The notes below the pieces were generated by a model. The model had not been told where the DNA came from and searched no databases. It worked only from the letters and a program-made list of their open reading frames with translations. Below are positions 42,408 through 53,351 of a DNA stretch of 64,000 nucleotides, one piece after another. Each line of letters opens with the position of its first letter. The stretch's first letter is position 1. A program made the translations under genes and the position numbers. The stretch comes from Streptomyces sp. CB01201 (lineage in GTDB: Bacteria > Actinomycetota > Actinomycetes > Streptomycetales > Streptomycetaceae), in the NCBI RefSeq assembly GCF_002803085.1, contig NZ_NNBJ01000004.1:969-64968 (forward strand), written 5' to 3'.

Positions 42408-43568
42408 TCAGCGGGGTCTGCCCGCCGGGATGGGCTTGCGGGCCAGTGCGCCGCGCAGGAGCGGCGTCGCCCAGCGTTCCACGTAGCGGTTGAGCAGCCA
42501 GGCCAGGAGCAGCATCGCCGCGACCGTGAGGGCGAAGGTGGCCGGGGCCGGGATGTGCAGGCCGCGGTGGAGTACGCCCACGACCACCCAGCCCAGGTGC
42601 TCGTGGACCAGGTAGAACGGGTAGGTGAGGGCGCCCGCCACGGTGAGCCAGCGCCAGTTCGCCCAGCGCAGGTGGCCGAGCGCGATCAGGCCGACCAGCA
42701 CGAAGCCCAGCGTGATGATGGCGATGATCACCGAGGCGTGCCGGTTGGAGAAGGCCGCCGGATTCGGCTTGTGCCACAGGCCCGCGACCGCCCAGTGCTG
42801 GCCGATGGCCCAGCTGACGGCGACGATGCCCCACGCGGTGACGTCACGCCGGTTGCGGTGCAGCAGGTACAGGCCCATGCCGCCGATGAAGAAGGACGCG
42901 TACTCGGGCATGAACACGGCGTTCAGGAAGGGCTGTTGGGCCGTCGCGGTGAGCGCGGCGGCCAGCGTCCAGCCCGCGCAGAACAGCACGACGCGGCGCC
43001 GGGTCGCGCCGGGCAGCACCACACAGACGGCGAACAGGGCGTAGAAGCGCAGCTCCGCCCAGAGCGTCCAGCACACCCCGAGCACCCGGGGCACCCCGAC
43101 CGGCATCTGGAGCATGGTCAGGTTCACCACGAACTCGCTGGGCGTGACGGTCTTGTAGACCACCCACGGCAGCGCGAACACGGCGGTGATGATGATCAGC
43201 GCGGCCCAGTACGCCGGGTAGAGCCGGGAGACGCGCGAGGCGAAGAAGGAGCGCAGGGGCCGGCCCCAGCCGCTCATGCAGATGACGAAGCCGCTGATGA
43301 CGAAGAAGATCTGCACCCCGAGGCAGCCGTAGGAGAACCACTCGTGGGCGGACGGGAACAGCTTCTTGGGGGAGGCGCCCCAGCCCCGGCTGATGTCGCC
43401 CGAGCGGCCGCCGTAGTGGTAGAGCGCCACCATCAGGGCGGCGACCAGGCGCAGCCCGTCGAGCGCGCGCAGCCGGGAGACCGGGGCCGCCACCGGGGCG
43501 CGCTCGGGCGCCTCCTCCTGCGGCTGACCGCCGCCGGTGCTTCGTACCCGCGGCAGGGTGTTGGTCAC
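42408..43568 (-). CDS. acyltransferase-3 family membrane protein (OafA/YrhL type)
   Basis: A 386-aa polytopic membrane protein with about ten helices, transferring acyl groups to exported sugars or polymers. Family marks: RLRALDGLRLVAALMVALYH, GCLGVQIFFVISGFVICMSG, RVSRLYPAYWAALIII and WTLWAELRFYALFAV. The conserved catalytic His is in ALYHYGG and the Arg in SRLYPAYW. GTG 43568 has GAGGAG upstream. The acceptor is unknown; O-acylation of the nonulosonate wall polymer made by the 46-53 kb locus is a possible but unproven role. Confidence 0.88.
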   Translation of the reverse strand: MTNTLPRVRSTGGGQPQEEAPERAPVAAPVSRLRALDGLRLVAALMVALYHYGGRSGDISRGWGASPKKLFPSAHEWFSYGCLGVQIFFVISGFVICMSGWGRPLRSFFASRVSRLYPAYWAALIIITAVFALPWVVYKTVTPSEFVVNLTMLQMPVGVPRVLGVCWTLWAELRFYALFAVCVVLPGATRRRVVLFCAGWTLAAALTATAQQPFLNAVFMPEYASFFIGGMGLYLLHRNRRDVTAWGIVAVSWAIGQHWAVAGLWHKPNPAAFSNRHASVIIAIITLGFVLVGLIALGHLRWANWRWLTVAGALTYPFYLVHEHLGWVVVGVLHRGLHIPAPATFALTVAAMLLLAWLLNRYVERWATPLLRGALARKPIPAGRPR

Positions 43569-43736: not shown

Positions 43737-45233
43737 TCAGGCCGCGCCGAGCGGGGCGAGGTAGTCGTCCAGTCCGGTGGCGTCCGTTCCCGCCCAGCCC
43801 ACGTATCCGTCGGGGCGGACCAGGAAGAGGCCGCGCCCGTACGCCTCGTACGGGCCCAGCTCGTGCACCCGGACGAGGTCGGACGCGAGGGCGGGGGCCG
43901 GGGTGTCGAAGGCGAGCAGGGTGAAGTGCGGGCCGCGCAGGAGGTCGAAGATCCTGCCCTCGGGCAGGATGCCGTCCGGGGCGCGGTCGCCGGCTTCCAG
44001 GGCTCCGGCCCGCCCGGCGGAGAGCGGGCCGCCCCGGTAGCCGAGGCCGAGCTGGCCGGTCTCCGACCGGCGTCTGCTGTTCTCGCCGACCATGGCCGTG
44101 CGGTGCAGCCGGGTGCTCATGCCGAGCACCCCGGCGGCGATCGGCCTGCGCTCCTCCTCGTAGGTGTCGAGCAGGGTGTCGGGGGCGCCGTGGCGGAGCA
44201 CCTGGGCGAGCTTCCAGCCCAGGTTGTACGCGTCCTGGACGCTGGTGTTGAGGCCCTGGCCGCCGGCCGGGGAGTGGATGTGCGCCGCGTCGCCCGCGAG
44301 CAGGACGCGGCCCGCGCGGTAGCGGTCGGCGAGCGCTGCCCGGGGCCGGAAGTCGGAGGCCCAGTGGACCTCGGCGACCTGCTCCTCGGTCATGGGCGTA
44401 CGGGCCGCGACCACCTTGCGGACGCCCGCGTCGCTGGTGTCGGGGACGGCGCCCTCGTCGGCGTACTGGGCGATCAGCTGGAACAGGCCGGGCCCGCCGG
44501 GCAGCGGGCAGATCAACACGCTGCCCTCCGGACTGCCGTTCCACAGATGCCAGTTGAGGTCGTCGACGAGTGCGTCCGGGGTCATGGTCAGGTCCGCGAC
44601 GAGCATGGGACGGGGGTCGACGCTCTCGCCTCGCAGGGCGATGCCGAGGGCGCGGCGGATGCCGGAGCGGCCGCCGTCGGCGGCGACGAGGTGGCGGGAG
44701 CGGACGGTACGGCCGTCGGCCAGGGCGGCGGTGACGCCGTCGGCGTCCTGGGTGACCGCGGTCACCTCGGCGTCGAAGACGACATCGCCGCCGAGGCTCC
44801 GCAGGTGCGCGTACAACAGGTCCTGGAAGCGGGCCTGGCCGATGAGCAGGCCGTTGGCGTGGGGCTCGCGCTCGGTGGGCTCGTAGCGCTCGATCATGTC
44901 CCACTCGCGGCCGCGCTCGGTGCCGTCGGGGCCCACCCACTCCAGCATGCGCGGGTAGGCGCGGCCGGCCCGCAGCACGGTCTCGACCAGGCCGAGGTCG
45001 TCGAGCAGCTCCAGGGTGCGCGGCTGGAGGCCCTTGCCGCGCGAGCCGGGGAAGAGCCGGTCGGACCTCTCGACGAGGAGGGCGGGGACGCCGCGCCGGG
45101 CGAGGTCGATGGCGAGCACGAGACCGGTGGGCCCGGCGCCCACGATCAGGACGTCGGTGGACTCGGGAAGGGCCCCGGAGCCGGTGGCGGGAGCGGTCGC
45201 GGGCACGGGTTCCTTAACGTCGTTAAGTTCCAT
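43737..45233 (-). CDS. FAD-dependent aromatic monooxygenase (PheA/TfdB-type hydroxylase)
   Basis: A 498-aa class A flavoprotein monooxygenase. The FAD motif is VLIVGAGPTGLVLAIDLARR (residues about 29-48), the DG motif is LVAADGGRSGIRRALG, and the GD motif is LLAGDAAHIHSPAGGQGLNT; the C-terminal thioredoxin-like domain ends FLVRPDGYVGWAG. Such enzymes hydroxylate phenols, polyketides or antibiotics such as rifampicin. It is divergent from a TetR regulator, and a 15-bp operator-like palindrome lies inside its first codons. The substrate is unknown, and inducible detoxification is the likely theme. Confidence 0.9.
   Translation of the reverse strand: MELNDVKEPVPATAPATGSGALPESTDVLIVGAGPTGLVLAIDLARRGVPALLVERSDRLFPGSRGKGLQPRTLELLDDLGLVETVLRAGRAYPRMLEWVGPDGTERGREWDMIERYEPTEREPHANGLLIGQARFQDLLYAHLRSLGGDVVFDAEVTAVTQDADGVTAALADGRTVRSRHLVAADGGRSGIRRALGIALRGESVDPRPMLVADLTMTPDALVDDLNWHLWNGSPEGSVLICPLPGGPGLFQLIAQYADEGAVPDTSDAGVRKVVAARTPMTEEQVAEVHWASDFRPRAALADRYRAGRVLLAGDAAHIHSPAGGQGLNTSVQDAYNLGWKLAQVLRHGAPDTLLDTYEEERRPIAAGVLGMSTRLHRTAMVGENSRRRSETGQLGLGYRGGPLSAGRAGALEAGDRAPDGILPEGRIFDLLRGPHFTLLAFDTPAPALASDLVRVHELGPYEAYGRGLFLVRPDGYVGWAGTDATGLDDYLAPLGAA
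45213..45227. promoter_or_regulatory. TetR operator 1 (inside monooxygenase codons 3-7)
   Basis: CTTAACGTCGTTAAG is a 15-bp inverted repeat with 6-bp arms (CTTAAC/GTTAAG). It overlaps codons 3-7 of the monooxygenase gene and is matched by a second copy 36 bp away. Binding by the divergent TetR protein is inferred. Confidence 0.8.
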
Positions 45234-45959: not shown

Positions 45960-47279
45960 CTAGGCCCGCCGCGGCGTCAGCCGCCGGACCCGCCGGGCCA
46001 CCCGGCGCACCGTCGCGTTGCGCGGGATGAAGCCCAGCTGGGACGGGATCGCGCCGGGCAGGGCGAGCGCGGTCAGGCGGCGGCGCTTGAAGTACCGCCA
46101 GGTGTGGGTGTTCAGGGAGGCCGAGAGATAGCGCTCGGCCGCGCCGCGCAGGTCCGGGCGCAGCTCGGGCTGCATCGCATAGCCCACCGCACGCAGCAGC
46201 TCCGGCAGGTCCACGGCCGGGTGTGCCTCGCCCTCCAGGGGCGGGAGCATCGCGTCCGCGATCGTCACCGGGACCCGGTTGCTGTTCTGGTACGGGGCGA
46301 TCCGGTCCAGGAGCAGCTCGGTGCCGACCCGGGCCACCGCGATGCCGTAGAACGCCGACGCCGTCAGGAGCGCCGTCGAGAAGCAGCCCACCACGAGCGC
46401 GGGGGAGAGGCGCTCGTAGAGCACCTCGGCCATCAACGGGCGTTCGAGGAAGGTCAGTTGGACGTCGAGCGTCACCGCCTCCGCCTCCAGCGCCTGCGAC
46501 CAGGCCGGCGGCGCCGACGGGTGCGGCTTGAAGACGATCCGCCGATGGCCCCGCGCCGCAGCGCCCCGCAGCATGCGCAGGTGCAGCTCCTCCTCCTGGG
46601 CCGGGGTGAGGATGGACAGCGCGGACAGGTACTGGCCGAGCAGGAGGGCCGGCGGCTCGCCCTCCGAAGGCAGGCCCAACTCGGTTTCCGCTGCGGCCAG
46701 TTCACCCACCGTCTGCACGAAGGCCGCCGTCGGCACCGTCTCGCTCGGCACGCCGAACTCCCCGAGCAGCAGGGGCCGCAGCTCCGGAACCAGGTCCAGG
46801 TGCAGCACCCGGCGCACCCGTGAGCCGATCAGCGGGTCCAGCTTGTTGCGCGTCGGGCCGTACGTCATCAGGCCGTCCGCGTACACCGTGATCGGCGCGT
46901 CCGGGAAGAGCTGGGCGACCGCCTGCGCCGGGTTCACCTGGATGGACTCAAGGGCGAGCTCGATCCGGTCGTCCCCGAGGTCCCACAGCACCCTCAACTG
47001 CCGCTCCCAGAGCGGGACATCGTCCGGGCGCGGGGACCAGCCGCCCGGGTGGAAGGGGGCGATCGTGTCGTTCCAGGAGAGCACCCCGTCGAATCGGCCG
47101 CGCAGCAGCTCGAAGCCCGGCATGGTGTCGAGCGACGGCGACACCTCCGGCGCGGGCGCGTTGTTGCTGATGAGCAGCAGCCGCCGGTCGGCCGTGGGGA
47201 AGCAGCCGCTGTCGAGGGCGGCGGCGAGCGTGGCCACCCCGTACAGGGTGGACGCCGCGAAGATCTGGGTCGTGGGCAT
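45960..47279 (-). CDS. alpha-2,8-polysialyltransferase-like glycosyltransferase
   Basis: A 439-aa cytoplasmic or membrane-peripheral protein of the bacterial polysialyltransferase family. Recognisable parts: MPTTQIFAASTLYGVATLAA at the start, WNDTIAPFHPGGWSPRPDDV, HRRIVFKPHPSAPPAW with the HP motif used in CMP-sugar binding, and PALVVGCFSTALLTASAFYG with the catalytic-site Ser region. It would polymerise or transfer nonulosonic acid residues from CMP donors. The ATG shares a base with the GT2 stop (TGATG), so the two are coupled. The neuA/neuB homologues lie on the divergent arm. Confidence 0.82.
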   Translation of the reverse strand: MPTTQIFAASTLYGVATLAAALDSGCFPTADRRLLLISNNAPAPEVSPSLDTMPGFELLRGRFDGVLSWNDTIAPFHPGGWSPRPDDVPLWERQLRVLWDLGDDRIELALESIQVNPAQAVAQLFPDAPITVYADGLMTYGPTRNKLDPLIGSRVRRVLHLDLVPELRPLLLGEFGVPSETVPTAAFVQTVGELAAAETELGLPSEGEPPALLLGQYLSALSILTPAQEEELHLRMLRGAAARGHRRIVFKPHPSAPPAWSQALEAEAVTLDVQLTFLERPLMAEVLYERLSPALVVGCFSTALLTASAFYGIAVARVGTELLLDRIAPYQNSNRVPVTIADAMLPPLEGEAHPAVDLPELLRAVGYAMQPELRPDLRGAAERYLSASLNTHTWRYFKRRRLTALALPGAIPSQLGFIPRNATVRRVARRVRRLTPRRA

Positions 47280-48262
47280 CAGGCGGCAGCTCCCGCCGAG
47301 GGCGCGGCCGGGCGGTGGCGCAGCCTGCGCAGCCGGGCGGCGCGGCGCGCGTCCATCGAGTTCAGCGCGTCCCTGAGGTGGTCCTGCGGCAGCCGTTTCA
47401 GCGCGCCCGCGCTCAGGGCCTTGAGTTTTCTGGCCACGGCCGGTTCGAACCTTTCGATGCCGCTCATATGGTGGGAAATGATCGCGCAGTACGTCCGTAC
47501 GGCTTTCGGGAGCAATTCGTCCGCATCCCGGTCCGCGGCCGTCTCCGCTATTACTTGATCGAATGCGCGAATGAAATCGAGTTGTCGCACATCGCCGATT
47601 TGCGTCAGCGAGGAGGCGACCCCGCGCCGGTAGAACACGCCGAGCTGCCCCGTCACCGCGAAGGACTCCGCCTCGCGGTGCAGCCGCCAGATCCACGGCC
47701 GGTCCTCGGCCGTGCGCAGCCCGTCGGTGAAGTGGAGCAGCCCGCGCTCGGCCAGCCTGCGGTGGTACATCCCGGCCCAGGCGAACGCGTAGTCCACCGA
47801 GGTGGAGCGGGTGGCGGGCAGGATCGCCTCGCGCGGAGACATCACCTCACCGCGCCGGCCGTGCGGCACCCGGTGCACCGTACGCTCCTGGCCGGTCACC
47901 TGGACGTGGTCGGTGCGGACGAAGTCACAGCCCAACTCCTCGATGACGGAGAGGAGTTGGGAGAAGTAACCGGGAGCGAGCCAGTCGTCGCCGTCCAGGT
48001 ACGTCAGATATTCGCCGCGGGCCGCGTCCAGGCCGGTGTTGCGGGCCGTGGCCAGACCGCCGTTGCGTTCGTGTCTGAGCAGCACCGCCCCCGGCAGCTC
48101 GCGCTCGGCGCGTTCGAGCAGCTCGATCGTGCCGTCCGACGAGCAGTCGTCGACCAGCAGGAACTCGAAGTCGTCGCGGGCGTTCGCGCGCAGACTTCGC
48201 AGGGTGTCGGATGCGTAGGCGCGCACGTTGTAGAACGGCACGATGACGGAGAGCTTGACCAC
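47279..48262 (-). CDS. family 2 glycosyltransferase
   Basis: A 327-aa GT-A fold glycosyltransferase. Typical GT2 motifs: VKLSVIVPFYNVRAYASDTL, FEFLLVDDCSSDGTIELLER, HERNGGLATARNTGLDAARG and the metal-binding YLTYLDGDDWL, followed by the acceptor region AEDRPWIWRLHREAE. GTG 48262 is chosen because it starts directly at the conserved first strand and TAGCGT ends 7 nt upstream; ATG 48292 is an alternative giving 10 more residues. It is coupled to the polysialyltransferase-like gene and probably adds another sugar of the wall polymer. Confidence 0.88.
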   Translation of the reverse strand: MVKLSVIVPFYNVRAYASDTLRSLRANARDDFEFLLVDDCSSDGTIELLERAERELPGAVLLRHERNGGLATARNTGLDAARGEYLTYLDGDDWLAPGYFSQLLSVIEELGCDFVRTDHVQVTGQERTVHRVPHGRRGEVMSPREAILPATRSTSVDYAFAWAGMYHRRLAERGLLHFTDGLRTAEDRPWIWRLHREAESFAVTGQLGVFYRRGVASSLTQIGDVRQLDFIRAFDQVIAETAADRDADELLPKAVRTYCAIISHHMSGIERFEPAVARKLKALSAGALKRLPQDHLRDALNSMDARRAARLRRLRHRPAAPSAGAAA

Positions 48263-48450
48263 GGCGGTGACGCTATGGCGCCGTTCCGTCATTCGTCCTG
48301 TCCGGCACCAAGATGATGGGTGAACGAAGAATGGCGGGACTGTTAACCCGTCCGCCGGGCCGCCCCGCACTCCTTGAGTAGTCGCGCTGTTAACCAGTTG
48401 TTGCAGTCGAGTTGGGCCGCGAATACGCGGGGCTTCCTAGTTTCTACGGC

Positions 48451-49815
48451 GTGCCATCACGTACCGATTCAAGGCTGCGGATCGCGGTTCTCGCGGATTC
48501 GGACACCCGGTGGAAATGGGGTGCGCTCACCGCGCGCCGCCTCGCCGAACAGGCTCCCGGGACCGACTCCGCCGCGACCGCGCCCCTCGCCCCCGAACTC
48601 GACGGCTTCCTGCTCCGGGGCCGCGCCACCCCCACGCCTCGCCAGCTCGCCGAGGTGGGGGTCGCGGCGGACGCCCTGCGCGAAGTGACGATGGCTCAAT
48701 TCCTGGATGCCGTGGCCAAGTCGGGCTCGGCAGGTGCGGCGTACGACGTCATCGTGCTCGCGCTCGTCGGCGGCGCCGCCCAGGCCGCGCTGCACGGGCT
48801 CGCCGCCCGGCTGCGGGGCCGGAGCCGCCGCCCCGTGATCGTCACCGGCTATGTGGGCGTCGTCTACGAGAAGCTCGCCGACGGTCTGCTCCTGCGGCAC
48901 GGCGCCGACATCGTGCTCGCCAACTCCCGCCATGACGCGGCCCGTTTCCGCGCGGTGTACGAAGGCGTGGGCGCCGACGCCTCCGCCGTCACCGAGGCCG
49001 CGCTGCCCTTCCTCGGCGGCGCCGCCTACACGGCCGAGCCCGGCCGCGACACGGTCGTCTTCGCCGCCCAGCCCTCCGTGCCGGAGAGCCGCGCCGACCG
49101 CCGGTACCTCCTTGACCGCCTGGTCGGGCACGCCCGGCTGCACCCGGAGCGCGAGGTCGTCCTCAAGCTCCGCTCCAAGCCGGGCGAGCACACCACGCAC
49201 ATCGAGGAACACCCCTTCCAGAAGCTCGCCAAGGGCATCGACCTGCCGCCCAACTTCTCGCTGGCGTACGGGAACATGGGCGGGATCCTGGACCGCGCCG
49301 ACCTCCTGGTGACGGTCTCCTCGACCGCCGCCCTGGAGTCCCTGCACCGCTCGGTGCCGACGGCCGTCCTCACCGACCTCGGTGTCCGCGAGGTCCTCGG
49401 CAACCACCACTTCCTCGGCTCCGGCTGTCTGGCCTCCTGGGACCGGCTCGACGCCGGGCACCGGCCCGTGCCCGACCCCGAGTGGCTCGCCGCCCAGGGT
49501 GTGGCCCCGGGTGACGCGTACCACCGCGCCTTCGACCAAGTGCGGTCCCGCGTGGCCGAGTTGCTCGCCGCGGCGAGCCTGCCGCCGATCGCCCCCTACT
49601 ACACCGCCGCCACCGCGCCCGGCTACCTCCCGGGCATCCTCGCCCGCCACCACCTCGCCCCCGACGGCACCCCGCTGCCGGGCGCGGCCCCCGCCACCGA
49701 GCGGACCGGGCTGCGCCGGGTGATCAGGGACGCCGTGCGCGACGCGGCGCGCGGCGCCTACCGCCACGGCGTGCAGCGGGTCGCGCCCGTCATCCGCCGG
49801 ATGGGAGAACTGTGA
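48451..49815 (+). CDS. putative glycosyltransferase, DUF6716-like
   Basis: A 454-aa protein with a GT-B-like appearance: the first strand RLRIAVLADSDTRWKWGALT, then RPVIVTGYVGVVYEKLADGL, a central strand HPEREVVLKLRSKPGEHTTH and the donor-site-like block RADLLVTVSSTAALESLHRS. I recall it as the DUF6716 putative glycosyltransferase family, usually next to neuA homologues. GTG 48451 is the likely start, with TAGTTT ending 7 nt upstream (possible leaderless mRNA). It overlaps neuA by one base, so it belongs to the nonulosonate operon. Donor and acceptor are not known. Confidence 0.75.
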   Translation: MPSRTDSRLRIAVLADSDTRWKWGALTARRLAEQAPGTDSAATAPLAPELDGFLLRGRATPTPRQLAEVGVAADALREVTMAQFLDAVAKSGSAGAAYDVIVLALVGGAAQAALHGLAARLRGRSRRPVIVTGYVGVVYEKLADGLLLRHGADIVLANSRHDAARFRAVYEGVGADASAVTEAALPFLGGAAYTAEPGRDTVVFAAQPSVPESRADRRYLLDRLVGHARLHPEREVVLKLRSKPGEHTTHIEEHPFQKLAKGIDLPPNFSLAYGNMGGILDRADLLVTVSSTAALESLHRSVPTAVLTDLGVREVLGNHHFLGSGCLASWDRLDAGHRPVPDPEWLAAQGVAPGDAYHRAFDQVRSRVAELLAAASLPPIAPYYTAATAPGYLPGILARHHLAPDGTPLPGAAPATERTGLRRVIRDAVRDAARGAYRHGVQRVAPVIRRMGEL

Positions 49816-51044
49816 TGCCCCCGACCGCCGCACCGAGCACGCCCCCCAAGGTGCTCGCCGTCATCCCCGCCCGGGGCGGCTCCAAGGGTGTGCCCGGCAA
49901 GAACCTCGCCTCCGTCGCCGGGGTGCCGCTCGTGGTGCGGGCCGTGCTCGCCTGCCGGGCCGCCCGGCTCGTCACCGACGTCGTCGTCTCCACCGACGAC
50001 CCGGCGATCGCGGCCGCCGCCCGCTCGGCCGGCGCCGACGTGGTCGTCCGCCCGGCCGGGATCTCGGGCGACACCGCCAGCAGCGAGGCCGCCGTCCTGC
50101 ACGCCCTGGACGCGCACCCGGACGCCCGGGTGGTGCTGCTCGTGCAGTGCACCAGCCCGTTCCTGACCCGCGAGGACGTCGAGGGCGTGGCCGCGGCGGT
50201 CCTGGAGGACGGCGCCGAGACCGCCGTCACCGTCGCCCCCTTCCACGGCTTCCTGTGGCGCGAGGACGAACTCGGCGGCGGCCAGGGCATGGGCCACGAC
50301 AAGTCGTTCCGGCCGCGCCGCCAGGACCGTCCGCAGGACTTCCTGGAGACCGGCGCCGCCTACGCCATGGACGCCGAGGGCTTCCGCACCCACCAGCACC
50401 GCTTCTTCGGCCGCACCGCGCTGGTGCGCACCGACCCGGCACGGGTCCTGGAGATCGACGAGCCGCACGACCTGGACCGGGCCCGCGCACTCGCCCCCGT
50501 CCTCGACCGGCTGCCCACCCCGACCCGCGACGACGTCGACGCGGTCGTCCTCGACTTCGACGGCACCCAGACCGACGACAAGGTCCTCATCGACTCCGAG
50601 GGCCGCGAACTCGTCGCCGTGCACCGCGGTGACGGGCTCGGCATCGCCGCCCTGCGCCGGGCCGGGCTCAGGCTGCTCGTCCTGTCCACCGAGCAGAACC
50701 CCGTCGTCGCCGCCCGCGCCCGCAAGCTCAAGATCCCGGTCCTGCACGGCATCGACCGCAAGGACCTCGCGCTCAAGCAGTGGTGCGAGGACGAGGGCGT
50801 CGACCCCCAGCGGGTGCTCTACGCCGGCAACGACGTCAACGACCTGCCCTGCTTCGCCCTCGCCGGCTGGCCGGTGGCCGTCGGCAGCGCCCACGACTCG
50901 GTGCGCGCAGCGGCGCGTGCCGTGACCCGCACCCCCGGCGGCGAAGGAGCGATCCGCGAGATCGCCGCCTGGCTCCTCGGACCCGAACTCACCCACACCC
51001 CACCGCCCCCGCACGCCCCCGAGACCCACCACACCCCCGCCTGA
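49815..51044 (+). CDS. neuA: bifunctional acylneuraminate cytidylyltransferase / HAD phosphatase
   Basis: A 409-aa fusion. Residues about 10-220 are a CMP-sialic/Kdn synthetase: LAVIPARGGSKGVPGKNLAS (CTP loop), STDDPAIAAAARSAGADVVV, LLVQCTSPFL. Residues about 235-395 are a KdsC/YrbI-like HAD phosphatase: VVLDFDGTQTDDKVL (DxDGT), LLVLSTEQNPVVAARARKLK, and YAGNDVNDLPCFALAG. The phosphatase would dephosphorylate the 9-phosphate of the nonulosonic acid before activation, as in known Kdn enzymes. ATG 49815 has GGGAG 7 nt upstream and overlaps the previous stop by one base. Confidence 0.92.
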   Translation: MPPTAAPSTPPKVLAVIPARGGSKGVPGKNLASVAGVPLVVRAVLACRAARLVTDVVVSTDDPAIAAAARSAGADVVVRPAGISGDTASSEAAVLHALDAHPDARVVLLVQCTSPFLTREDVEGVAAAVLEDGAETAVTVAPFHGFLWREDELGGGQGMGHDKSFRPRRQDRPQDFLETGAAYAMDAEGFRTHQHRFFGRTALVRTDPARVLEIDEPHDLDRARALAPVLDRLPTPTRDDVDAVVLDFDGTQTDDKVLIDSEGRELVAVHRGDGLGIAALRRAGLRLLVLSTEQNPVVAARARKLKIPVLHGIDRKDLALKQWCEDEGVDPQRVLYAGNDVNDLPCFALAGWPVAVGSAHDSVRAAARAVTRTPGGEGAIREIAAWLLGPELTHTPPPPHAPETHHTPA

Positions 51045-51087
51045 CCTCCCCGCCCGACCTCCCCATCCGATGTAAGGAAAGACCCTC

Positions 51088-52032
51088 ATGAGCAACCGTC
51101 TGCGCACCCTCGGCAGCCGCACCGCAGGCCCGGGCCACCCCGTGTACGTCACCGGCGAGATCGGCATCAACCACAACGGCGACCTCGACAACGCGATCGC
51201 CCTGATCGACGCCGCCGCCGACGCCGGCTGCGACGCGGTCAAGTTCCAGAAGCGCACCCCGGAGATCTGCACTCCGCGCGACCAGTGGGACATCGAGCGG
51301 GACACCCCGTGGGGCCGGATGACGTACATCGACTACCGCCACCGGGTGGAGTTCGGCGAGGACGAGTACCGCACCATCGACGCGCACTGCAAGGAGCGCG
51401 GCATCGATTGGTTCGCATCGCCGTGGGACACCGAGGCCGTCGCGTTCCTGGAGAAGTTCGACGTGCCGGCCCACAAGGTGGCCTCCGCCTCGCTCACCGA
51501 CGACGAGCTGCTCCGCGCCCTGCGCGCCACCGGCCGCACCGTCATCCTCTCCACCGGCATGTCGACGCCGAAGCAGATCCGGCATGCGGTCGAGGTGCTC
51601 GGCAGCGACAACATCCTTCTGTGCCACGCCACTTCGACCTACCCGGCCAAGGCCGAGGAGCTCAACCTGCGCGTGATCAACAGCCTGATGGCCGAGTACC
51701 CCAACGTGCCGATCGGCTACAGCGGCCACGAGACCGGCCTCCAGACCACGCTCGCCGCCGTCGCGCTCGGCGCTGCGTTCGTCGAGCGCCACATCACTCT
51801 GGACCGCGCGATGTGGGGCTCCGACCAGGCCGCCTCCGTCGAGCCCGGCGGCCTGACCCGCCTGGTCCGTGACATCCGCACCATCGAGGCGGCGCTCGGC
51901 GACGGCGTCAAGAAGGTCTACGACTCCGAGCTGGCCCCGATGAAGAAGCTGCGCCGCGTCGCCGGCGTCGTCGCCCAGGCCGAGGCCGCCGACGCCGAGA
52001 GCGCCGGGGACCGCGCCCCGGCCGCGGTCTGA
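51088..52032 (+). CDS. neuB: N-acetylneuraminate/Kdn synthase family protein (NeuB)
   Basis: A 314-aa PEP-dependent aldolase-type synthase forming a nine-carbon keto acid from a hexose (mannose or ManNAc type, possibly 6-phosphate) and PEP. Conserved parts: VTGEIGINHNGDLDNAIALI, AGCDAVKFQKR, DWFASPWDTEAVAFL, LLCHATSTYPAKAEELNLR and IGYSGHETGLQTTLAAVALG with VERHITLDR. The C-terminal SAF (antifreeze-like) domain of most NeuB proteins is missing, making it shorter than the usual 345. AAGGAAAG precedes ATG 51088. It follows neuA by 43 bp. Confidence 0.93.
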   Translation: MSNRLRTLGSRTAGPGHPVYVTGEIGINHNGDLDNAIALIDAAADAGCDAVKFQKRTPEICTPRDQWDIERDTPWGRMTYIDYRHRVEFGEDEYRTIDAHCKERGIDWFASPWDTEAVAFLEKFDVPAHKVASASLTDDELLRALRATGRTVILSTGMSTPKQIRHAVEVLGSDNILLCHATSTYPAKAEELNLRVINSLMAEYPNVPIGYSGHETGLQTTLAAVALGAAFVERHITLDRAMWGSDQAASVEPGGLTRLVRDIRTIEAALGDGVKKVYDSELAPMKKLRRVAGVVAQAEAADAESAGDRAPAAV

Positions 52033-52047
52033 GGGGGCGGGCCCGCC

Positions 52048-53139
52048 GTGCCTCGGGACACCTCCGCCACGCTCGCCTTCGTGGAGAGCCCGGTCCAGCT
52101 GCTCAACGTCCTGGAGTGGGCCCATTCGGCGGGCCCGCTGCTCGACGGCGTACCCGCACAGCAGCGTCCCGAGGCGCCCGACCTCTCCGGGCTGACCGTC
52201 GTGGTGCTCTCGCCGACCGACCCCATGTCGCGCGGCCAGCTGCGCCGGATGGCCGAGCTGGCCCGGGACGCCGGCACGAAGGTGCGCTGGGAGGAGGCCC
52301 GGGGCGGCCTCACGGCGCCGCTGCACACCATCGGCGGGCTCACCCCGATGCTGCGCAGGGCCGACCGGATCGTCATGGGCGACCCGTTCTCGCGCTACGT
52401 CCAGCTCCTGCTCACCGTCTCGCGCGCCCGTGACCTGGTGGTCGTGGACGACGGGACGGCCACCATGGAGTTCGTCTCCCAACTCGCCCGCGGCGAGCGC
52501 CTGGTGCGCTGGCACCGGCGGGGCAGCCGGGCCGGCATACGTGACCTCGTGTTCGCGCCGGTCTCCGCGGCGGCCCGCCGCCGGCTCACCCCGGCGCGGC
52601 GCCGCAGCGTGGAGGTGTTCAGCGCGATGCCCGTCGAGGCGCCCGAGGGCGTCACCGTCACCGCCAACACCTTCGGCTGGACGCGGGCGGGCTTCGGGCC
52701 GCCGCGCCTGACCAAGGGCGCCGACCTGGTGGGGACTTCACTGGTGGAGACCGGGGTCGTCGACCCGGAGAGCTACCTCGCCGCGGTCGAGCAGCTGGCC
52801 CGTACGCACGGGGTGACCCGCTACTTCGCGCACCGCAGGGAGTCCGCCGAGAAGCTGCACACCCTGCATGCCCGCACCGGCCTCGAAGTCGTACGGCCCG
52901 ATCTGCCGCTCGAACTCATCGCGCGCCGGGGCCCGGTGGGCCGCACGATCCTCAGCTTCCCCTCCACCGTGGTACACACCCTGCCGCTCGCGCTCGCGGG
53001 GACCGGGGTACGGGTCGTGGTCTGCGACATAGACCCCCGGTGGCTCACCGACAAGGCCTCGCCGCGCGCCCAGGGCTTCCTCGACGGTGTGACGGGGGCG
53101 GCGCGCCGGGCCCACGGCCTGGCCAGAGTGGCTGCCTAG
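52048..53139 (+). CDS. putative glycosyltransferase, GT52/sialyltransferase-like
   Basis: A 363-aa protein and last gene of the nonulosonate operon, 15 bp after neuB. It begins LAFVESPVQLLNVLEWAHSA, a strand-helix found at the start of GT52-like sialyltransferases; RADRIVMGDPFSRYVQLLL and the C-terminal TRYFAHRRESAEKLHTLH (HRRE motif) and SFPSTVVHTLPLALAGTGVR (SxxS, CMP-site like) agree with that family. No signal peptide. It may transfer the first nonulosonic acid to an acceptor. Start GTG 52048. The family assignment is moderate. Confidence 0.72.
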   Translation: MPRDTSATLAFVESPVQLLNVLEWAHSAGPLLDGVPAQQRPEAPDLSGLTVVVLSPTDPMSRGQLRRMAELARDAGTKVRWEEARGGLTAPLHTIGGLTPMLRRADRIVMGDPFSRYVQLLLTVSRARDLVVVDDGTATMEFVSQLARGERLVRWHRRGSRAGIRDLVFAPVSAAARRRLTPARRRSVEVFSAMPVEAPEGVTVTANTFGWTRAGFGPPRLTKGADLVGTSLVETGVVDPESYLAAVEQLARTHGVTRYFAHRRESAEKLHTLHARTGLEVVRPDLPLELIARRGPVGRTILSFPSTVVHTLPLALAGTGVRVVVCDIDPRWLTDKASPRAQGFLDGVTGAARRAHGLARVAA

Positions 53140-53351
53140 GGCGGGGCGGCGGATGTCGTCCGGCCCGGGGGAGGACGGCCGCTCCTACTCTGGGGGGAAC
53201 GTCCATGCCCGGACATCGGGCGGAAGGATGAAATAGTTTACCCAGTTGTCACGAACGGCATGCGCCGTGCGACCAGCTTTCTTTCCCCTATGCGGCTGAA
53301 CTTTTGTTGATCGCGCGTGAGTTGACCCTCCGAGAGGCCTACCCTCAACGA

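Follow-up and report, generated by a model that had tools for sequence, protein, structure and literature searches.

A conserved six-gene Streptomyces locus predicted to make and polymerise CMP-Kdn for a phosphate-free wall polymer

In Streptomyces coelicolor, SCO4873-SCO4882 are described as PhoP-controlled teichulosonic acid genes (PMC13011467, citing Ostash 2014), and the same cluster is also described in PMC2824715. In the passages drawn on here the locus is characterised as containing neuAB and as specifying a putatively phosphorus-free polymer (PMC2267785), and the polymer is given as one of Gal and Kdn (PMC11481543, PMC7831098). The window analysed here, a 64,000-nucleotide stretch of DNA from Streptomyces sp. 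CB01201, carries at 45960-53139 NeuA and NeuB together with conserved glycosyltransferases in the order of SCO4877-SCO4882, and by the published names the products of all six genes correspond. Because the compared loci included no S. coelicolor sequence, this gene-for-gene match is one of order and product names. The first-pass annotation had tied this kind of locus to a Kdn-containing teichulosonic acid in S. coelicolor, and the relevant text of PMC13011467, PMC2267785, PMC11481543 and PMC7831098 shows that link to be right. The locus is an ortholog of a known Streptomyces system and a normal feature of the genus; the present analysis adds a more explicit scheme of the enzyme steps and predicts both a function for one family-less protein (X52) and a control region.

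Profile searches and inspection of the open reading frames resolved the locus into two divergent, tightly packed groups, the leftward one comprising the GT2 and PF07388 genes and the rightward one the DUF6716, NeuA-HAD, NeuB and X52 genes. The features are as follows.

45960..47279, minus strand: PF07388 polysialyltransferase-like glycosyltransferase, 439 aa (Pfam PF07388, 4.8e-29); placed second in the leftward pair; by order SCO4877
47279..48262, minus strand: GT2 (GT-A) glycosyltransferase, 327 aa (PF00535, 1.6e-31); by order SCO4878
48260..48453: promoter region shared by the two divergent groups, carrying PHO-box-like repeats and two GTG starts, both probably leaderless (footprint over 73 regions and repeat counts)
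48315..48347, minus strand: three 11-bp PHO-box-like units facing GT2, the inner one an exact GTTCACC and the other two degenerate
48389..48421, plus strand: three 11-bp-spaced PHO-box-like units (GTTAACC / GTTGCAG / GTTGGGC) facing DUF6716
48451..49815, plus strand: DUF6716 (PF20471) putative GT-B glycosyltransferase, 454 aa (PF20471, 8.5e-104); by order SCO4879
49812..51044, plus strand: fusion of NeuA (CMP-nonulosonate cytidylyltransferase) and a KdsC-type HAD phosphatase (PF02348, 2.2e-23); by order SCO4880
51088..52032, plus strand: NeuB-type synthase without a SAF domain, 314 aa, predicted to be a Kdn-9-phosphate synthase (PF03102, 4.1e-81); by order SCO4881
52048..53139, plus strand: X52, polysialyltransferase-like GT-B protein without a family match, predicted to be a CMP-Kdn-dependent transferase (predicted fold); by order SCO4882

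All six genes that the first-pass annotation had proposed (NeuB-like, NeuA-HAD, polysialyltransferase-like, GT2 and two further glycosyltransferase-like genes, in divergent arrangement) are present, five of them by family match and X52 by its GT-B model. The place it gave to the locus also holds, but the reading frame 45960-47696 is too long: the PF07388 gene most likely starts at the ATG at 47279, which overlaps the GT2 stop as TGATG. The conserved promoter footprint most likely places the GT2 start at the GTG at 48262 and that of DUF6716 at the GTG at 48451. Third-position GC (GC3) is 0.85-0.96 across the six chosen frames and, together with the profile E-values, rules out chance or a frame artefact.

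Among the 80 highest-ranked of at least 583 confirmed stretches from named relatives, all six genes occur in the same order in 68. Ten of the other 12 are broken by a contig end and two, which had room for the full set, are real departures: L018 is without the GT2 and PF07388 genes and L076 is without GT2. Two records of the window's own genome (L001 and L002) were excluded from these counts. In a profile search, NeuB was found in 139 of 150 genomes of the genus.

We consider it likely, at a probability of about 0.87, that the locus builds CMP-Kdn and polymerises it to give a wall polymer free of phosphate (a teichulosonic acid), by the following steps. ManA would supply mannose 6-phosphate. 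The SAF-less NeuB would condense this with phosphoenolpyruvate, giving Kdn 9-phosphate, from which the HAD half of NeuA-HAD would remove the phosphate; the NeuA half would then form CMP-Kdn. Kdn would be transferred by the PF07388 protein and X52, while the GT2 and DUF6716 proteins would add a linker or the remaining sugar(s). Gene content, synteny, motifs, predicted folds, conserved repeats and the lack of NeuC or NanE over cut-off were observed here; phosphate/PhoP control and the Gal and Kdn composition are taken from the cited portions of the S. coelicolor papers; we infer the substrate and the roles of the single transferases. The predicted route resembles the CMP-Kdn pathway of Bacteroides thetaiotaomicron and Prymnesium parvum, as given in the text consulted (PMC6200933), in running from Man-6-P through Kdn-9-P and Kdn to CMP-Kdn and in including a phosphatase. 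It differs in that the phosphatase is here fused to NeuA, that the HAD half scores under the Kdn-9-phosphatase cut-off and that the pathway is predicted from genes. A Pfam search of the six genes found no flippase or exporter among them, and export of the polymer is presumed.

In the NeuA-HAD fusion, the NeuA half carries RGGSKGVPGKN at residue 21. The HAD half retains DFDGTQTDD at 248, LSTEQN at 291, RKDLALK at 316 and GNDVND at 339, and so has every element of the HAD catalytic set (DxDG(x)xTD, S/T, K and GNDxxD), as would be needed in a Kdn-9-phosphate phosphatase. The D-x-D-G motif is present in 77 of 78 related NeuA-HAD reading frames, and the HAD half matches a solved relative, 3mmz, at 4.9e-87. 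Its top-ranked HAD model in NCBIfam is KdsC (88.6 bits; cut-off 208), followed by a KdsC subfamily (77.6; cut-off 106.95), the phenylphosphate carboxylase delta subunit (74.8; cut-off 281.95) and, fourth in rank, Kdn-9-phosphatase NF058599 (67.5 bits; cut-off 180). Both the HAD half and NeuB score under the curated cut-offs of every equivalog that they match. Vertebrate CMAS is a NeuA-HAD fusion with an inactive HAD half, a precedent for a scheme in which Kdn is made here, but from free mannose as the NeuB substrate and with a vestigial HAD half. The intact motifs, and the near-universal D-x-D-G among the relatives, argue against such decay. Moreover, the Prymnesium Kdn-9-phosphate synthase, as reported in the part of PMC6200933 used here, does not use free mannose, and we judge this scheme very improbable.

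The NeuB protein shares its catalytic barrel with N. meningitidis NeuB/SiaC (1xuu, 2wqp, 4ipi) and, in an alignment read by eye against the residue list in the available text of PMC6795526, retains equivalents of Glu25, Gln55, Lys129, Tyr186, Ser213, His215 and Glu234. It differs by the changes Asn184 to Ser and Phe288 to Leu, also read by eye, and by the absence of the antifreeze-like (SAF) domain. In the meningococcal enzyme, whose substrate is unphosphorylated ManNAc, Arg314 of the SAF domain positions the N-acetyl group and the R314A variant is inactive (same passage of PMC6795526); without the SAF domain the window NeuB is also without this residue. Against TIGR03569, the model of N-acetylneuraminate synthase, it scores 250 bits, under the curated cut-off of 399.65, with the match ending at position 284 of 329. 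A SAF-length tail is missing from all 79 complete relatives. In 74 relatives measured by pattern the tail has 16-39 residues, apart from a single case in which reading on through a stop gives 98. The pattern missed six relatives: in five, which are complete, the tail is short on visual inspection, and the sixth is truncated by a contig end. SAF loss by itself proves nothing, because 6ncs, a 290-aa chain deposited as N-acetylneuraminic acid synthetase, is SAF-less and the human synthase, which has a SAF domain, uses both substrates. For the latter, a table in PMC6200933 lists both Man-6-P and ManNAc-6-P as accepted.

The same profile searches bear on a different nonulosonic acid, of the pseudaminic or legionaminic type and destined for a surface glycan, since the best NCBIfam match of the NeuA half is PseF (109.5 bits) and NeuB matches PseI (208 bits). 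Both scores fall under their cut-offs (205.7 and 340.25, respectively), TIGR03569 is the better match for NeuB, and no aminotransferase, dehydratase or acetyltransferase family occurs among the six genes. Of the alternatives weighed, this one is the least credible.

A sialic acid product would call for a source of ManNAc or its 6-phosphate. In a profile search of the genome no NeuC was found above cut-off (2 of 14 controls gave matches over cut-off), as the first-pass annotation had supposed; the lone sub-cut-off match is a non-hydrolysing WecB (269.8 bits; cut-off 210.15). NanE was likewise not found in the genome, in a search that matched 8 of 14 controls, 6 of them over cut-off. Across the 150 genus genomes, NeuC over cut-off occurs in none and NanE over cut-off in 25. 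ManA is present in the genome, and a Pfam search of the six genes gave no match to a NeuD-type family. One match to PF07221 (GlcNAc 2-epimerase family) lies on another contig, at 60.9 bits against a cut-off of 23.4, and gives ManNAc a slight chance of being supplied. It carries one internal stop, its reading frame on re-scanning spans only profile positions 140-319 of 347, and that frame has no NCBIfam name at 1e-8.

The DUF6716 protein was considered as a hidden NeuC. Its structure model, made with 29 relatives thinned from 57 usable, has a GT-B fold (pLDDT 75.4) and ranks WecB-type epimerases first (Z 18.1), but the ranking continues without a gap into GT-B transferases (MGD1, 16.3; MurG, 15.2; TarL, 14.8). 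The candidate was set aside, as the fold ranking does not part epimerases from transferases and the invariant DUF6716 motifs look unlike those of WecB and NeuC. The PF07388 protein matches its family at 102.3 bits (gathering score 23.3) and is the sole PF07388 match in the genome; GT29 gave no match in the genome, but none in the controls either, so that search is uninformative.

Taken with the name of PF07388, which refers to polysialyltransferases, the PF07221 match and the epimerase-like DUF6716 fold would suit a locus in which Neu5Ac is made, alone or with Kdn, from an epimerase outside NeuC and NanE, so that the polymer holds sialic acid. A mixed product is conceivable because a Serratia neuA/neuB capsule locus yields Kdn and Neu5Ac at about 20:1, according to the section of PMC9000132 cited. 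The defects of the PF07221 match, the grading of DUF6716 into ordinary transferases, its dissimilar motifs and the lack of NeuC and NanE over cut-off all weigh the other way, as does the S. coelicolor polymer, reported as Kdn in the cited text of PMC11481543 and PMC7831098. We regard this alternative as unlikely. Kdn as the probable product, which the first-pass annotation had favoured over sialic acid, thus gains support from the absence of NeuC and NanE over cut-off, the absence of NeuC throughout the 150 genomes, the intact HAD motifs and the SAF-less NeuB.

X52 has no Pfam or NCBIfam family. A search at E up to 5 gave no family for X52 itself; across 37 members, 11 families were matched by one or another, without PF07388 among them, and one member matched PF07922 (GT52) at 0.18. 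A profile search of the PDB gave only two chance matches. The AlphaFold2 model, made with 36 relatives thinned from 72 usable, is of pLDDT 81.0 and pTM 0.83. In a second structural alignment it lies nearest to the bacterial polysialyltransferase 5wc6_A (Z 19.6, rmsd 5.6, 322 aligned), the next different protein being 2z4t (Z 14.4). Foldseek ranks a GT80-type sialyltransferase, 2zwi, first (3.1e-05), then MurG and epimerases, and 5wc6 is absent from its 50 best rows. Thus the polysialyltransferase fold is recovered by structure and has no counterpart in a sequence-profile match: 5wc6/5wcn, a Mannheimia enzyme of CAZy GT38, is the closest solved fold in the second alignment but is only 12% identical to X52. 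Residues D134, D135, G136, H262 and S303-T307 are invariant in the 37 sequences. X52 is predicted to be a polysialyltransferase-like GT-B protein and a CMP-Kdn-dependent transferase, a proposed role for the conserved SCO4882-type protein of Streptomyces.

It is possible, at slightly less than even odds, that X52 represents an unrecognised CMP-Kdn-dependent family of polysialyltransferase fold, that the SAF-less NeuB of the genus is a dedicated Kdn-9-phosphate synthase and that SAF loss is the cause of its refusing N-acetylated substrates. If true, a SAF-less NeuB, a fused HAD and no NeuC would make up a rule, readable from sequence, that predicts Kdn polymers across bacteria. Kdn-specific synthases and transferases would be useful to glycochemists.

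The promoter region was compared over 73 regions, one from the window and one from each of 72 loci, with the PHO-box consensus GTTCACC taken from the relevant text of PMC4415409 and PMC6283541. In the window's own promoter only one unit is exact and the others match partly, with 14 of 21 letters at 48315..48347 agreeing with three GTTCACC units. An exact GTTCACC occurs in 61 of the 73 regions, where mononucleotide shuffles give 2.2; the shuffles preserve base composition only, and the counts are not independent because the regions are related. Two units score at least 9 of 14 in 73/73 regions (43.7 in shuffles) and at least 10 in 64/73 (10.8), and three units reach 13 in 73/73 (9.6). On the other side, GTTAAC-11-GTTG is found in 65/73 regions, with a further GTT[GC] 11 on in 64/73. 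A score scan of the whole window did not place the divergent promoter among the 25 best PHO-box sites; since the repeats emerged only by comparison, the operator claim rests on conservation. A scan with the sigma-70 consensus was negative for promoters, and the single terminator-like site that turned up is within chance. Leaderless-start patterns, in permissive expressions, fit 73/73 and 61/73 regions, and both GTG starts are probably leaderless.

The conserved 11-bp repeats are a candidate PhoP operator within a putative control region, and phosphate/PhoP control like that published for the S. coelicolor cluster would be expected from them. Under phosphate starvation PhoP would bind the repeats between the gene groups and start both as leaderless mRNAs, and a phosphate-free polymer could then take the place of phosphate-rich ones. 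Overall, the data support the presence in this strain of a genus-wide, phosphate-sparing Kdn wall-polymer system, and offer a testable reason for Kdn and not sialic acid.

The published SCO4873-SCO4882 cluster, by its gene range, is wider than the six-gene set. An FAD monooxygenase gene and an acyltransferase-3 gene lie to the left of the window's locus. A survey of the flanks took in 69 loci in which both end genes are present, 65 of them with a gene called on the left side, and one representative was scanned for each of eight clusters; the left arms differ among the relatives' loci.

The region 45960-53139 contains six genes in two divergent groups, as the first-pass annotation had claimed:

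Leftward group: GT2 glycosyltransferase and PF07388 polysialyltransferase-like protein.
Rightward group: DUF6716 protein, NeuA-HAD fusion, NeuB and X52 (52048-53139, plus strand; without any family).

The GT2 stop codon overlaps the ATG of the next gene as TGATG, NeuA and DUF6716 overlap by 4 bases, and the following rightward gaps are 43 and 15 bases. The likely start of the PF07388 gene is ATG 47279, the reading frame given originally being too long.

By gene order and product names, the locus maps to SCO4877-SCO4882 of Streptomyces coelicolor. The tie to the teichulosonic acid locus of that species, already drawn in the first-pass annotation, is borne out by published work. SCO4873-SCO4882 are PhoP-controlled teichulosonic acid genes (PMC13011467, citing Ostash 2014), and PMC2267785 describes the SCO4877 region as neuAB-containing and putatively phosphorus-free, with SCO4877 a hypothetical protein, SCO4878 a glycosyltransferase, SCO4879 a conserved hypothetical protein, SCO4880 a transferase and SCO4881 a polysaccharide biosynthesis protein. 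Moreover, SCO4873-4882 track phosphate transporters (PMC2824715), and the S. lividans proteins SLI_5146-5156 are raised in a phosphate-stressed mutant (PMC8003754). Matching Planobispora genes are tabulated in PMC8269224, which, however, pairs a sialic acid synthase with SCO4880, one gene off from the order inferred here. To this picture the present analysis adds the absence of NeuC at genus level, the SAF-less synthase (SAF, antifreeze-like domain), the predicted fold of X52 and a promoter footprint.

Named genomes were scanned with NeuB and the best 80 of 583 loci were kept (79 Streptomyces and one [Kitasatospora] papulosa; NeuB identity 87-96%). The complete core is present, with order and strands kept, in 68 of these best 80; among the remaining 12, ten end at a contig edge and two truly depart. 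Of 150 genomes sampled from the genus, NeuB-family matches occur in 139 and are lacking in the other 11. The locus is this strain's version of a system that is already known and occurs across the genus. Four sampled genomes (G085, G039, G146 and G018) carry an additional NeuB-family gene that is less closely related (E values between 1.4e-74 and 3.6e-69), and in three more (G013, G133 and G037) the additional gene is a close one; these perhaps serve another nonulosonic acid or belong to a second locus copy. An M20 peptidase gene (family match) adjoins the core on the right, with an M20 match in 67 of the best 80 loci, and a putative BMP/ABC transporter group, judged from translations, lies beyond it; both look unrelated to the polymer.

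The earlier preference for Kdn over sialic acid is supported, as far as sequence can tell, by three lines: precursor supply (neither NeuC nor NanE), a HAD phosphatase with intact motifs, and the SAF-less NeuB. Profile searches of the CB01201 genome found ManA, no NanE and no NeuC over cut-off. The claimed lack of NeuC held, the sole NeuC-like match being WecB, and it extends to the genus (0/150 over cut-off, with weaker WecB-like matches in 59/150). NanE exceeds its cut-off in 25/150 genomes, none of which is among the 11 without NeuB, so that 114 of the 139 NeuB-bearing genomes have neither enzyme, genome handles being taken as identical between searches. A PF07221 epimerase-family match on another contig of the genome, above its cut-off (60.9 against 23.4 bits; one internal stop), counts against this argument from precursor supply.

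The HAD half of NeuA-HAD retains all four expected motifs, and a phosphatase is required only on the 9-phosphate route (PMC6200933). KdsC models match it best and the Kdn-9-phosphatase model fourth, all under cut-off; 3mmz is the solved structure of a close relative. The TIGR03569 match to NeuB ends at 284/329, and NeuB frames of complete relatives among the best 80 of 583 loci stop no more than about 40 residues past the barrel. Since Arg314 of the SAF domain helps to position the N-acetyl group of ManNAc, R314A being inactive (PMC6795526), we infer that SAF loss reflects a substrate without this group. SAF loss alone is no proof of Kdn, because the SAF-less chain 6ncs is nevertheless deposited as an N-acetylneuraminic acid synthetase and the human synthase accepts both Man-6-P and ManNAc-6-P (PMC6200933). 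A minor second product beside Kdn is also possible, as a Serratia neuA/neuB locus makes both acids (Kdn:Neu5Ac about 20:1; PMC9000132). In alignments judged by eye, NeuB has Ser in HKVASAS (residues 129-135), where the meningococcal enzyme has Glu and 6ncs Asp, and Ser in place of Asn184 in HATSTYP (residues 180-186). Both are unchanged in all of the best 80 of 583 relatives and are possibly a specificity mark of this NeuB subfamily.

Sequence searches with X52 gave no match. For its model, built from 37 sequences (pLDDT 81.0, pTM 0.83), Foldseek ranked a marine sialyltransferase first, with MurG and epimerases coming just after and 5wc6 absent from the 50 matches shown. A second structural alignment placed the bacterial polysialyltransferase 5wc6/5wcn on top (Z 19.6 and 19.4, rmsd 5.6, 322-323 aligned), followed by marine sialyltransferases (14.4 and 14.2) and many GT-B enzymes (12.2-13.6). 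X52 is read as a predicted CMP-Kdn transferase, a shared fold being no demonstration of role. Searches by gene number or topic, covering few subscription papers, found no fold or activity for SCO4882 in the titles and passages covered. The DUF6716 model (pLDDT 75.4) has a GT-B fold; WecB-type epimerases lead its ranking (Z 18.1), with transferases at 16.3 and lower.

Conserved blocks emerge when the divergent promoter region of the window is aligned with those of 72 loci (73 regions in all). GTTCACC, the S. coelicolor PHO box consensus (PMC4415409, PMC6283541), occurs exactly in 61/73 regions, against 2.2 in composition shuffles, and GTTAAC-11-GTTG in 65/73. In 22/73 regions GTGAAC/GTTAAC recurs at a distance of exactly 22 bases; among the other spacings tried from 15 to 31, only 15 gave any (3). 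PhoP repeat units have the same 11-bp step. In the window, two sets of PHO-box-like units are predicted from conservation; a PHO-box scan confined to the window would have missed them:

48315-48347, minus strand, predicted PHO-box-like units.
48389-48421, plus strand, predicted PHO-box-like units.

On each side a TAGNNT block stands 7 bases ahead of a GTG (48262 and 48451), a spacing which suggests that the mRNAs of both groups are leaderless, as is reported for phoR (PMC6283541). A PHO-box-like pair 5' of the M20 gene (53236-53257) scores within scan background.

Left of the core, relatives differ (for example L053:27-1352, L021:1243-3669, L008:1461-2390, L041:3690-4787, L072:74-1036 and L040:2069-3412), and this variable arm may set the decoration of the polymer. 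In 69 loci, with one representative scanned per cluster, the protein clusters, named after their representatives, include GT29-like (12 proteins; PF00777, 26.6 against 23 bits), pyruvyltransferase-TPR (12), Methyltransf_24 (11), acyltransferase-3 (10), second GT2 copy (6) and second PF07388 copy (4). In the window, family matches identify two genes in this position, and genes of these kinds stand on the left in 17/69 and 16/69 loci, respectively:

42408-43568, left of the core, same strand as the next, acyltransferase-3 gene.
43737-45233, left of the core, same strand as the preceding, FAD monooxygenase gene.
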